Source: Acidocella sp. KAb 2-4
Lineage (GTDB): Bacteria; Pseudomonadota; Alphaproteobacteria; Acetobacterales; Acetobacteraceae
Direction: 5' to 3'
NCBI RefSeq assembly: GCF_020567705.1
Contig: NZ_JAJDJU010000002.1
Location: forward strand, 186,001 to 250,000
DNA: 64,000 nucleotides
Shown: piece after piece, positions 6,675-62,946 of the stretch
Layout of the letters: every line of letters starts with the position of its first letter
How positions within the stretch are numbered: position 1 is the first letter of the stretch
The notes under the pieces: generated by a model
Told to the model about the DNA's origin: nothing
The model's database searches: none
Seen by the model: the letters and a program-made list of their open reading frames with translations, nothing else
Translations under genes and position numbers: made by a program

Positions 6675-7013
6675 CTAGCGCCGCCCCAGCAGGCGCGCGG
6701 CCAGCAGACCGATGCCGAAGGCGACTGCGACGCTGGTTAGCGGGCGGGCGCAGACCTCATGCTCCAGCCGTGTCACCGCGTCCCGGCCCGTATCCTTCAG
6801 CTTTCCGGCCAGTTCCTCCAGGTCGTCCTCCAACGACTCGACGCGGGAGGTGAGGCCCGCATTGTGCAGATAGGCGTTGATGCGCTCCATCGCCTCATGC
6901 GCGTTGCCGCTCAGCCGCTCCTTGGCTCCGGCCAGCTCGGCGCGGAGATGCTCGAATTCCCGCTTGAGAAACTCGACATCGACGGTTTCAGTCTTGTTGT
7001 CCGACTCGCTCAT
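6675..7013 (-). CDS. DUF883 (ElaB/YqjD-like) membrane-anchored protein
   Basis: A 112-residue protein with a charged, helical N-terminal part that probably forms a coiled coil (residues 10-85). A C-terminal hydrophobic anchor rich in small residues follows (PLTSVAVAFGIGLLAARLLGRR). This is the layout of DUF883/ElaB/YqjD proteins, which are tail-anchored in the inner membrane and bind ribosomes in E. coli in stationary phase. The ATG at 7013 has a perfect AGGAGG 7 bases upstream. A longer in-frame upstream extension exists but lacks family similarity and is rejected. First gene of a two-gene operon with the holin-like protein. Confidence 0.75.
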   Translation of the reverse strand: MSESDNKTETVDVEFLKREFEHLRAELAGAKERLSGNAHEAMERINAYLHNAGLTSRVESLEDDLEELAGKLKDTGRDAVTRLEHEVCARPLTSVAVAFGIGLLAARLLGRR

Positions 7014-7143
7014 GCTCCGGCCTCCTGTGGCAAGGTTCATGTCCGTGCCGCAAATATATAAGCAATCCGGCGCGGTTCGGCTATGATGACGGCAAAAGCC
7101 GCGCTGGCGCGCGATGAGTGGCGGAGGAGGCAGGCGGAGCGGT

Positions 7144-8172
7144 ATGCGGAGCAGGACGAGGCGGGACGGAATGATGGCGGCTCTGGCCGTGGCGATGGCG
7201 GCGCCCTGCGCCTGGGGCGATGTGCCGTTTCCTGGCACGCCGAACTCGCTGGCGCCGCTGGTGGCCTCGGTGGCGCCTTGCGTGGTCGGCATCGCCGTCA
7301 CCGAGGCGCCGGGCCAGTCCACCGCCCCGGCCAAGCCCGCGGGCGCGCATCAGCCGCCGATCACCGAGGCTGCCGGCTCGGGCTTCATCATCAGCCCCGA
7401 CGGCATGATCGTCACCAACGACCATGTGATCGCGGGCGCGGCGCACATCACCGTCACCCTGGATGACGGCACGCGTTACACCGCGCGGCTGGTGGGGGCG
7501 GATGATCTCACTGATATTGCTGTCATTAAAATCTCGTCATCTTCGCCGTTGCACCCGGCCCGCTGGGGCGATTCCGCCCAGATGCGGGTGGGCGATTGGG
7601 TGCTGGCCGCCGGTAATCCCTTCGCATTAGGCAATTCGTTCACGCTCGGCATCGTTTCGGCCGAGGGGCGCGATGTCGGTGACGGGCCATTCACCCATTT
7701 CCTGCAGCTCGATGCGCCGATCAACCCCGGCAATTCGGGTGGTCCGTCTTTTGACATGGCGGGGCGGGTGATCGGCATAAATTCAGCAATCGTCTCGCCT
7801 TCCGGCGGGTCGGTGGGGGTGGCTTTCGCCATTCCCAGCAATAGCGCGGCGCCAGTGGTGGCGGCGCTGATCGCGCATGGCGCGGTGGCGCGCGGCTGGC
7901 TCGGCGTGTCGGTGGGTGATGCCGCGAGCGGGGCGGCGGGGGCGGTGATCAACGGCGTTGAGCCGGGCGGACCGGCGGATGAGGCTGGATTGCAGCCGGG
8001 CGATATGGTTGTATCAGTTAACAATCAGGTCATCTCCGACGCCGCCGACTTGACGCGTGACATTGCCTCGACGCCGCCGGGCGGTAAGGTGCAGCTTAAG
8101 GTTAATTCTAACGGTCACCTGTCCCATGTGCAGGTCGTGGTCGGCCGCCGGCCGGCCCAGCTTGGAGAATAG
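7144..8172 (+). CDS. HtrA/DegP-like serine protease with one PDZ domain
   Basis: Periplasmic trypsin-like protease of family S1C. From the ATG at 7144 the protein has 342 residues: a signal peptide (basic MRSRTRR, then a hydrophobic Ala/Met stretch ending about residue 25), and a protease domain with the triad His94 (TNDHVI), Asp124 (LTDIAV) and Ser198 (GNSGGP). A single C-terminal PDZ domain follows from about residue 240 (GWLGVSV...). Alternative starts are ATG 7114 and ATG 7171. I chose 7144 for the GGAG upstream and the basic n-region. It lies 2 bases ahead of a response regulator, as in envelope-stress operons where the protease is coexpressed with its two-component system. Confidence 0.85.
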   Translation: MRSRTRRDGMMAALAVAMAAPCAWGDVPFPGTPNSLAPLVASVAPCVVGIAVTEAPGQSTAPAKPAGAHQPPITEAAGSGFIISPDGMIVTNDHVIAGAAHITVTLDDGTRYTARLVGADDLTDIAVIKISSSSPLHPARWGDSAQMRVGDWVLAAGNPFALGNSFTLGIVSAEGRDVGDGPFTHFLQLDAPINPGNSGGPSFDMAGRVIGINSAIVSPSGGSVGVAFAIPSNSAAPVVAALIAHGAVARGWLGVSVGDAASGAAGAVINGVEPGGPADEAGLQPGDMVVSVNNQVISDAADLTRDIASTPPGGKVQLKVNSNGHLSHVQVVVGRRPAQLGE

Positions 8173-59668: not shown

Positions 59669-59946
59669 AACGGGCCTTGTTGATATTGGCGGTGCTGCTG
59701 GCCCCGATGGCAGCGGCGGCGCAGCCGCAGCCGGTTTGCCGCGCCGACAGGCTGATCCAGGCCAATGGCCGGTATCTGCAAACCCAGACCGGGCATTGGT
59801 ACAAGCTCTATCCGGGACAGGGCTGGCGGACCGCGCTATGGCTGCCGCAGGACAGGCTGAATATCTGCTGGATCGGCGCGAATGCCTACCGGATCACCGA
59901 TCTGTCCATGCGGAACCAGTCAGTCCAGGCGCTGGACCTGAACTGA
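59665..59946 (+). CDS. Small exported protein of unknown function
   Basis: 93 residues with a clear Sec signal peptide (MKRALLILAVLLAPMAAAAQ, cleavage after AAA). The mature part is about 73 residues with two cysteines (QPVCRAD, NICWIG) that could form a disulfide, and Trp/Tyr-rich strands (TGHWYKLYPGQGWRTALWLP). I recognise no family. It is translationally coupled to cobB by an ATGA overlap with GGAGG upstream. The coupling of a cytosolic deacylase with an exported protein has no obvious explanation. Confidence 0.7.
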   Translation: MKRALLILAVLLAPMAAAAQPQPVCRADRLIQANGRYLQTQTGHWYKLYPGQGWRTALWLPQDRLNICWIGANAYRITDLSMRNQSVQALDLN

Positions 59947-59962: not shown

Positions 59963-60376
59963 TTAGACGGCGCTTTCGATCAGCGGCATGGCCATGCGCG
60001 ACTTGGCGAGCACCATGCCGATATTGGCGGTGTTGCGGCAGACGAACACGCCCACGTAATCCTGGTACTTCTTGCCTCGCATGAAGACATGGATCGCGTT
60101 GTCGGAGTTGACGATATATTCCTGGAAGTAGTGGCGCGCGGTGTCGACGCCGCGGGCGCGCTTCCACAATGTCTCGACGGTGGCGACATTTGGCCCCTGG
60201 AACAAATCGGCCGTGGCGGCGGCAACCAGATCGATCACCTCGCGCGGATGCGAGTCCACGGTCTTGATGCTGAGCAGAAAGCCCGAGCCGACATCGACAT
60301 AGCCGGCGGCCATGCATTCAGGGATCGTCGCGATGGCCTTGGCGACGGCGGCATCGAGATCGGAAGTGGTATTCAT
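59963..60376 (-). CDS. Small protein, probable roadblock/LC7-like fold
   Basis: 137 residues without membrane helices or signal. The alternation of strands and helices fits a roadblock/LC7 domain: CMAAGYVDVGSGFLLSI as the first hairpin, DLVAAATADLFQG as a helix, then YIVNSDNAIHVFMRGKKYQDYVGVFVCRNTANIGMVLAK. Such domains dimerise and regulate small GTPases or scaffolds. The assignment is by eye and moderate. It lies 99 bases downstream of the ABC-phosphatase fusion on the same strand and may be its partner. The ATG at 60376 is preferred over an upstream in-frame start at 60403. Confidence 0.55.
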   Translation of the reverse strand: MNTTSDLDAAVAKAIATIPECMAAGYVDVGSGFLLSIKTVDSHPREVIDLVAAATADLFQGPNVATVETLWKRARGVDTARHYFQEYIVNSDNAIHVFMRGKKYQDYVGVFVCRNTANIGMVLAKSRMAMPLIESAV

Positions 60377-60475: not shown

Positions 60476-62503
60476 TTATGTCGGGTTGGGCGCGTCGGCG
60501 GCGCGGTCGCGCAGCAAAGCCTGTTCCTGCTGCACCTCATACTCCATGAGGAAATCCTCCTGGTCGTCGGATTGCACGAACTGGCGGTTGAAGCGGCGGA
60601 TCTGGTTCAGCGCCATCTGCGCCGAGAGGCCTTTCTCCTTGACCAGATAAGCCGCCAGGATGGTGCCGGTGCGGCCGAGCCCGGCCAGGCAATGCACGGC
60701 CAGAACCTTACCGGCGTCGAGCAGCTCGCGCATGTGCGTCACCAGCAAATCCATCTCCGCCGGGGTCGGGGCTTTGCGGTCGGCGATCGGCAGGTGCACG
60801 TTGTTGAGCCCGTGCCGGGTCAGGGCGTCCTGCGGGAAGTCCTTCTCGGTCAGGGTGATCAGCGTGGTCACGCCGACATTCTTGAGCAGGTCGAGATCGT
60901 AATCGACATCGGCCGAGACGCCGGGCATCGGGGTCGCGGCCAAGCGGCCCTCCTCGATCCAGACAAAGCCGCGCGGGCCGGAGGAGGCGCCGGGGTAGCG
61001 CGTCACCGCCACCCGCTCGGGCTCCTGATAGGCCGGGGCGGGGGCTTTGAGCGGGGCGGAGACCGGCTCCGGCGCGGGCGCGCTGGCGGCCTCGGCGTCA
61101 TCCTCGGGCGCCAGGGCGGCGCGGATCTCGGATTTGATCGCCGCCATCGCCTCGGCTGAGAGGGGCGGCGGCGGCTCGACATGCTCGGCCAGGGTCTCGG
61201 CCGGGGCGCCGGGCGCGGGCAGGGCGACGCTGCCCGTGGCCACGAATTGCGCCACCACTTGGTTGGCGTTGCCGGTGAAGAACGCCTCGGTCGGCGCCTG
61301 TGCTTGCACCCGCCCGCCCGCCAGCAGGATGATGTTGCCGGCGATCCGCCGCGCCTGTTTCTGGTTGTGCAGCACCACCAGCAGCGCGCCATGCGCGCCC
61401 AGCGTCTGCAACAGATCGAGCACGGTTTCGGCGCCCGCGTCGTCCAGCCCCGCGGTCGGCTCGTCGATCATCAGCAGCGCCGATTCCGCCGCCGCCTCGC
61501 GCAGGATGGTGACGACACGCTGCGTCAGCGTATCCAGCTCCATGAATGGCAGGTCGAGCTTGTCGATCAGCCACGCCGTCCCGGCTTGGCGCAGCCATTG
61601 GCAGGCCCAGTCGCGCTGTTCGGCGTCGGAAACGCCCTCCATGCGGTCTCGGACATGGAACAGCAGGCTGTCCAGCGCCGAGCGCTGGGTGAGCTGGATG
61701 CGCTGCGCCACCAAGAGCGGATGATGCGCCGCGCTCACCGGCTCGCCCTTGAAGCGGGCCTCGCCCCAGCTCTTGAACAGGGCGTTTTGCGTGTAGATCG
61801 CGGCCAGGGCGCGCAGCAGCGTGGATTTGCCGGTGCCAACCGGGCCCATCAACACGGTGATGCCCTGGGCCGGGATCTCTAGCGAGACATTGTCGAGGAT
61901 CACCTTGTCGCCGAAGCCGACGCCGAACCCGGCGCAGGAGACGATCGGCGCCGCGGCCTGGGGCGCAGGGGGCGGCTCGGGCGCTGCCGTTATGATGGGT
62001 TCGGGCGCTGGCGCCGGGGGTTCGGGCTCAGCCGCTGCCGCGGCGGGCGGGGGTGCCGGTTCTGGCAAGGTGTCGGACGCGGGGACAATCTCAACCGGTG
62101 CCGGCTCGGGTTCCGGCGCCGGCGGGGCGGGGTGCAGCGTGAGCGGTTCAGCCTCGCCCTCCTCCGGCGTGAGCGGCTCCGGGGCGAGGTTCAGATAGTT
62201 GAGGATTCCACTCTCCGCCGCGGGGGCGGGCGGCAGATAAACGGGATCAGCGTGCCGCGCCCGGCCAAAGCTCGGCTCACTCGCCGGCTCCAGATTCAGC
62301 GCGGCGGGCTCCGCGGCGTCAGGGGCGGGGGAGACGAAATGCAGTTCCTCGCCGCTGGTGCGCTGCGAGAAAATTGAGGTGTCGATCGGCCTCTCGTCGC
62401 GCCGGCGCTGGCGCGCCCGGCGGGCGAGATCCGCCAGCAGCAGCAGGAGCGCAAGACCAATGACCCCAAGGCCGACATAGAGAAGCTGTATTTCGCCTTT
62501 CAA
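60476..62503 (-). CDS. Membrane-anchored fusion of an ABC ATPase domain and a dual-specificity protein phosphatase
   Basis: 675 residues in four parts. Residues 7-25 are one transmembrane helix. Residues 40-185 are a Pro/Ala/Glu-rich disordered linker. Residues 187-425 are an ABC nucleotide-binding domain with Walker A GPVGTGKST (220-228), Walker B LLMIDEPTAGLD (Glu348) and the switch His379. The LSGGQ signature is not recognisable (LDTLTQRVVTI instead). Residues 505-660 are a cysteine-dependent phosphatase with general acid Asp575 (PIADRKAPT) and the P-loop HCLAGLGRT (Cys605, Arg611). The ATPase is nearest PstB-like domains. The start is TTG 62503. No ABC permease is adjacent. Function unknown; a membrane-tethered nucleotide-controlled phosphatase is plausible. 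Confidence 0.85.
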   Translation of the reverse strand: MKGEIQLLYVGLGVIGLALLLLLADLARRARQRRRDERPIDTSIFSQRTSGEELHFVSPAPDAAEPAALNLEPASEPSFGRARHADPVYLPPAPAAESGILNYLNLAPEPLTPEEGEAEPLTLHPAPPAPEPEPAPVEIVPASDTLPEPAPPPAAAAAEPEPPAPAPEPIITAAPEPPPAPQAAAPIVSCAGFGVGFGDKVILDNVSLEIPAQGITVLMGPVGTGKSTLLRALAAIYTQNALFKSWGEARFKGEPVSAAHHPLLVAQRIQLTQRSALDSLLFHVRDRMEGVSDAEQRDWACQWLRQAGTAWLIDKLDLPFMELDTLTQRVVTILREAAAESALLMIDEPTAGLDDAGAETVLDLLQTLGAHGALLVVLHNQKQARRIAGNIILLAGGRVQAQAPTEAFFTGNANQVVAQFVATGSVALPAPGAPAETLAEHVEPPPPLSAEAMAAIKSEIRAALAPEDDAEAASAPAPEPVSAPLKAPAPAYQEPERVAVTRYPGASSGPRGFVWIEEGRLAATPMPGVSADVDYDLDLLKNVGVTTLITLTEKDFPQDALTRHGLNNVHLPIADRKAPTPAEMDLLVTHMRELLDAGKVLAVHCLAGLGRTGTILAAYLVKEKGLSAQMALNQIRRFNRQFVQSDDQEDFLMEYEVQQEQALLRDRAADAPNPT

Positions 62504-62855: not shown

Positions 62856-62946
62856 TGGCGGAGAGACAGGGATTCGAACCCTGGGTACGCTATTAACGTA
62901 CACACGCTTTCCAAGCGTGCGCCTTAAGCCGCTCGGCCATCTCTCC
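62856..62946 (-). tRNA. tRNA-Ser (anticodon GGA)
   Basis: 91 nt including encoded CCA (62856-62858). The acceptor stem is GGAGAGA / TCTCTCC with discriminator G. The anticodon stem-loop CGCTTGGAAAGCG gives anticodon GGA. It has the long variable arm expected of tRNA-Ser (GTACGTTAATAGCGTAC-like stem) and T-arm CAGGGTTCGAATCCCTG. Confidence 0.97.

Follow-up and report, generated by a model that had tools for sequence, protein, structure and literature searches.

A single gene of the window, the 64,000-nucleotide stretch of DNA from Acidocella sp. KAb 2-4 that was analyzed here, encodes an ABC ATPase fused to a dual-specificity phosphatase (DSP), and it is followed by a gene for a small protein with a predicted Roadblock/LC7 fold. 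The reading towards which we lean, and which we consider rather probable, is that the fusion is a nucleotide-binding-gated DSP-type protein phosphatase acting with its Roadblock/LC7 partner in MglA/Roadblock-type signalling, where we infer the binding of ATP, the interaction of both proteins, the direction of control and the substrate. This points to a hitherto undescribed type of phosphatase, under nucleotide control, in the G-protein signalling of bacteria. An earlier note on this DNA had proposed that the ATPase was probably a switch and not a transporter motor, and this part stood; a single architecture across the Acetobacteraceae, which it had named as a sign of a real system, was not supported, and it had missed both the Roadblock partner and the context of Ras-like GTPases. 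That partner and the GTPase operons make the fusion part of a signalling module and not an isolated oddity. The fusion gene is organized as follows:

60476..62503, minus strand: ABC ATPase–DSP fusion gene, TTG start, 675 residues in one open frame
62429..62491, minus strand: N-terminal transmembrane helix (residues ~5-25, from hydropathy); IQLLYVGLGVIGLALLLLL is the sole hydrophobic stretch near the N terminus
61946..62428, minus strand: Pro/Ala/Glu-rich linker between the helix and the ABC domain (residues 26-186, from the translation), of differing length in relatives
61229..61945, minus strand: ABC nucleotide-binding domain (residues 187-425; Pfam ABC_tran over 203-351, E 4.2e-12, above cut-off)
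60989..61228, minus strand: disordered linker between the ABC domain and the DSP (residues 426-505; AlphaFold pLDDT mostly below 50)
60524..60988, minus strand: DUSP23/VHZ-like dual-specificity phosphatase domain (residues 506-660; Pfam DSPc over 537-657, 1.5e-14)

On translation, the frame (62503-60476, minus strand) showed no internal stops and no frameshifts, and the domains succeed one another in the order transmembrane helix, Pro/Ala/Glu-rich linker, ABC domain, disordered linker and DSP. The earlier description of one open frame joining these elements to a Cys-based phosphatase was thus upheld, with Pfam support for both domains; the strand, which is minus, had not been given, and the residue numbers assigned to K226, Asp575, Cys605 and Arg611 were all correct. 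A frameshift or assembly join between the two domains, which the note had named as a possible refutation, was looked for in relatives and none was found, the same fusion recurring in several genera; such an origin was ruled out, given that the gene is unbroken in numerous genomes, a complete Comamonas chromosome among them. An Arg-rich segment of cytoplasmic type comes directly after the transmembrane helix. Relatives from the window's genus share the TTG start and the hydrophobic helix, and the membrane anchor is confined to the members from this genus; since all other members lack it, the ABC-DSP core is the common unit of the family. The AlphaFold model of the fusion, made with 20 family sequences and, like that of the partner, of the monomer only, was confident for the ABC domain and the DSP (blocks mostly at 80-97) and showed disorder between them. 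Of the three regions compared, the ABC–DSP linker had the lowest amino-acid identity in almost every pair, and the spacing from Walker A to the phosphatase Cys varies widely across the family (301-801 residues). A tRNA-Ser (gga) gene lies at 62856-62946 on the minus strand, between lepA and the fusion gene.

The ABC domain is nearest to PstB, both among NCBIfam models (1.5e-29; 103 bits against a cut-off of 343) and by its predicted structure, which is closest to E. coli PstB (Foldseek E 1.1e-18). Its diagnostic elements are the following:

61820..61849, minus strand: Walker A, MGPVGTGKST, with K226; Lys in 20 of 22 members, changed to Arg in the loci L064 and L065
61517..61537, minus strand: degenerate signature LDTLTQR where LSGGQ(Q)QR is expected; SGG core missing in 22 of 22 members
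61460..61477, minus strand: Walker B and catalytic Glu, LLMIDE (343-348); D347 and E348 invariant in a 20-sequence alignment, Walker B present in every member
61367..61369, minus strand: H-loop His379; His in 17 of 22 members, Gln in five members from genomes without the Roadblock partner

Walker A, Walker B and the catalytic Glu of the ABC ATPase superfamily are therefore in place and the LSGGQ signature is not, as the note had read from the window's gene. The position of the signature is occupied by LDTLTQR, LSPVQQR, LPLAVQR or similar variants throughout the family, and the invariant Gln267 of the Q-loop is retained even in L064 and L065. Because LSGGQ has been lost, and in every relative, the ABC domain is not expected to be a transport motor; no permease gene adjoined the fusion in the neighbourhoods that were read, namely those of the window and of other family loci.

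The C-terminal domain was assigned from profiles and from its catalytic residues:

60779..60781, minus strand: general acid Asp575; Asp in 20 of 22 members, Glu in L064 and L065
60671..60691, minus strand: phosphatase P-loop, C605-LAGLG-R611; Cys in 20 of 22 members, SHASLGR in L064 and L065

The DSPc score (54 bits, cut-off 33.5) is accompanied by better matches to two other DSP-PTPase families, Tc-R-P (3e-20) and PTP-SAK (7.6e-20), and by weak ones to PTPlike_phytase (4.3e-6) and PTP-NADK (6.4e-7), while the best solved relatives are PDB 25xa (4.5e-24) and DUSP23 (2e-20). The HCxxGxxRT P-loop and upstream Asp that characterize DSPc are represented by HCLAGLGRTG and D575, and Cys, Asp and Arg are all kept together in 20 of the 22 members. 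The domain evolves under a dN/dS of about 0.1 with respect to its closest relatives. The two exceptions, L064 and L065, which come from two species, have jointly lost the Walker-A Lys (K to R), the H-loop His, the phosphatase Cys (C to S) and the general acid (D to E). Between them, dN/dS is 0.13 and 0.11 in the two catalytic domains, and because purifying selection persists in both, these proteins look like functional pseudoenzymes and not like decaying genes. To judge from their sequences, the catalytically dead L064 and L065 show that enzymatic activity would be dispensable in some species. The joint loss of the Walker-A Lys and the phosphatase Cys is what would be expected if the two sites were coupled, and it fits the proposal, already made in the note, that the ABC domain serves as a nucleotide or dimerization switch for the phosphatase, which is still the most economical reading.

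The locus continues with the gene placed just behind the fusion:

59963..60376, minus strand: partner gene for a 137-residue Roadblock/LC7-fold protein (by predicted fold), ~100 bp downstream of the fusion and co-directional with it

This protein gave no Pfam family at E<=1, Robl_LC7 included, and for this reason it was classified by its predicted fold only (AlphaFold pLDDT 88), which Foldseek matched to the Streptomyces Roadblock/LC7 protein 3kye (2.2e-7) and to MglB (4.6e-7). In 16 loci the fusion is followed by a co-directional gene for a partner of ~135 residues, with a gap of at most 129 bp in 15 of them. The linkage is close also at the level of genomes. In a sample of 399 genomes of the phylum, the five with an ABC-DSP phosphatase (called at 200 bits or more) are the same five, and the only ones, in which the best match to the partner scores above 180 bits, and among 250 Burkholderiales the partner occurs in 5/5 ABC-DSP genomes, with a weak relative in only one other. 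Within the window's genus, it is present in 7/12 carriers of the fusion (in G035 away from the fusion) versus 0/25 non-carriers. Partner and ABC distances are correlated (Mantel r 0.94), a correlation that shared ancestry alone can yield. The five carriers without partner (G013, G015, G018, G021 and G033) are exactly the genus members without the H-loop His, and two of them also lack the Walker-A Lys and the phosphatase Cys. The partner and the His were probably lost in a single evolutionary event within one clade, and their association therefore counts as one data point.

Relatives of the partner were seen in other settings. The genome of the window holds two further paralogues, at C67:103581-103988 (59% identity) and at C12:36773-37159 (35%), the latter next to a further small protein that weakly matches LAMTOR5. 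On Ruegeria plasmids (L068 and L069), partner relatives of 37-39% identity belong to a conserved gene run that also encodes a Ser/Thr protein kinase and four GTPases of the dynamin family. On the other side of the partner, a plus-strand gene of the window ending at 59946 and convergent with the fusion locus encodes a small secreted-type protein; comparable small proteins are encoded close to the fusion in L060, L061, L062 and L066, and their recurrence indicates partial synteny of the locus among members, whether or not they have the Roadblock gene.

The ABC-DSP order is common to 22 loci, found in the window's genus, in Comamonas (including one on a complete chromosome), in other Burkholderiales (L076-L079) and in two additional families of this phylum (L112 and L113). 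The single conserved architecture across the Acetobacteraceae that the note would have taken as support was not borne out by this distribution: in the window's genus the fusion is patchy (12/37 genomes, one relative being an Acidocella MAG), and in the sample of the class the partner is present in 1/289 genomes, which is the window's own. These samples hold one genome per species, some of them incomplete, and weak family members may escape the first-look filter of the search. One Comamonas genome carries, on a different contig, a second fusion and Roadblock pair (L063) in AT-richer sequence with a transposase-like gene nearby, a setting that suggests horizontal movement of the pair. No record in the plasmid collection contained the whole fusion, the matches there being ordinary ABC ATPases only. 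The best phosphatase match outside the family in the phylum sample (genome G689, locus L127) was considered as a broken fusion and ruled out, for it is a free-standing gene. A defence system was likewise rejected, as the PADLOC matches cover the generic ATPase only. The note knew of no characterized protein with this domain order, and no description of an ABC-DSP fusion was found in the open-access full-text literature, subscription papers lying outside the scope of the search.

The third component of the proposed module, a Ras-like GTPase, is encoded within the gene run of the fusion in L077, L078, L079 and L113, and in L077 its stop codon and the start codon of the fusion overlap (ATGA). Canonical Robl_LC7 genes also occur in GTPase-bearing fusion loci, and L077, L079 and L113 include proteins that resemble a receiver/winged-helix component, as judged by eye and from one weak HTH_AsnC match. 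More distant relatives of the partner also accompany MglA-like GTPases and other roadblocks. The window locus itself has neither a Ras-like GTPase gene nor a receiver-like or winged-helix protein. On C1, another contig of the same genome, a Ras-like GTPase (ATP_bind_1 match) and a small roadblock-like protein overlap by 4 nt (L157, 5891-5232 and 6271-5888); 22 further genomes of the genus were searched with this GTPase, and it was found in none. No Ras-like GTPase was detected in G012, G034 and G035, which carry both fusion and partner and two of which are >=97% complete. Two further observations were made in this context. In L078, a gene for a BLUF blue-light sensor (6841-7266, minus strand; Pfam BLUF 2.7e-24) lies inside the ABC-DSP/Roadblock/GTPase run, and light may thus be an input to the module. 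L115-L121, most of which come from GTDB family f176, combine Roadblock-type proteins, frequently arranged in tandem, with MglA-like GTPases and genes of kinase-like appearance, in what looks like an expanded, uncharacterized GTPase signalling cluster.

A model can be proposed in which, in the window's genus, one helix would tether the fusion to what is presumably the inner face of the membrane. The ABC domain would bind ATP and change its state, most likely by dimerization or by a change of partner, and the Roadblock protein encoded by the adjacent gene would read or set this state, together with the Ras-like GTPase where the operon has one. The state would then pass to the DSP, carried on its flexible linker, which would dephosphorylate a protein of the pathway. 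It is also possible, although we hold it to be doubtful, that the Roadblock protein takes the ABC ATPase instead of a Ras-like GTPase as its nucleotide-switch partner, its binding replacing the LSGGQ otherwise provided in trans, so that the system would be an ATP-driven analogue of MglA/MglB with a tethered phosphatase as output. What points in this direction is that G012, G034 and G035 have no detected GTPase, and that the genus members devoid of the Roadblock lack the H-loop His.

Other explanations must be weighed against the partnered, nucleotide-gated protein phosphatase. The fusion might work alone, its ABC domain sensing ATP/ADP and gating the DSP, with the Roadblock gene as a passenger from an ancestral operon. 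Five genus members do carry the fusion without any partner, and the joining of the domains by itself suggests intramolecular coupling; however, the linkage to the partner is held across distant families, in the window's genus the partner never occurs without the fusion, and the partner-less fusions show loss of ATPase residues, in two cases of phosphatase residues as well, all of which makes this proposal unlikely. The conservation of L064 and L065 at dN/dS ~0.11-0.13 in both domains, despite their missing catalytic residues, would be expected if the ABC and DSP folds were primarily binding modules of a scaffold, the DSP acting as a phospho-reader and catalysis being secondary. We regard this as improbable for the family, in which the complete DSP triad and Walker A and B are retained by 20 of 22 members.

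A further question is what the DSP acts upon. Enzymes of the DSP fold are diverse, and the weak phytase-like and PTP-NADK matches could be taken to indicate a non-protein substrate (an inositol phosphate, a nucleotide or an RNA end), coupled by the ABC domain to nucleotide status. This is quite unlikely in view of the best solved relatives, which are DUSP23-type dual-specificity phosphatases, of the Roadblock/GTPase signalling context and of the Ser/Thr kinase next to the partner relatives in Ruegeria. That the ABC domain is an orphan transporter ATPase, fused to a phosphatase by chance, is hardly credible: its fold and profile are near PstB, but its score falls well short of the PstB cut-off, the signature is lost in 22/22 members and no adjoining permease was seen.

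To our knowledge, bacterial Ras-like GTPase/Roadblock modules are widespread and their outputs mostly unknown. An ABC-phosphatase that travels with a Roadblock protein provides them with a definite enzymatic output accessible to assays, and an ABC domain with a family-wide loss of the signature is suited to testing whether it acts purely as a nucleotide switch. Should the Roadblock protein act directly on the ABC domain, Roadblock proteins would regulate more than GTPases.

The fusion and its partner can be compared with several known systems. The ABC domain shares with PstB and other ABC importer ATPases its fold, Walker A and B, Q-loop and H-loop, and differs from them in having neither LSGGQ nor a permease and in being joined to a phosphatase. 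The DSP resembles DUSP23/VHZ in the C605/R611 P-loop, in Asp575 and in overall sequence (2e-20), whereas here it is joined to an ABC domain and, in the window's genus, membrane-tethered. In its predicted fold the partner is similar to MglB of M. xanthus and T. thermophilus (TM ~0.7); unlike MglB, with which it shares ~15-20% identity, it has no Robl_LC7 match and is encoded with an ABC ATPase-phosphatase. Group 3 MglA systems comprise a Ras-like GTPase, Roadblock proteins and a receiver/winged-helix (HTH-like) protein (Wuichet & Søgaard-Andersen 2014, PMC4316618), and the word phosphatase does not appear in the main text of the survey that defined them. L077, L079 and L113 resemble them in gene content, with a GTPase, one or two Roadblocks and a protein with what looks like an HTH part, whereas the window's genus and Comamonas keep only the fusion and the Roadblock together. 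Finally, the actinobacterial conservons (Cvn) also combine a small GTPase, a Roadblock protein and a phosphosignalling enzyme in each operon (PMC4316618); in them this enzyme is a histidine-kinase-like protein, while here it is an ABC-linked phosphatase.
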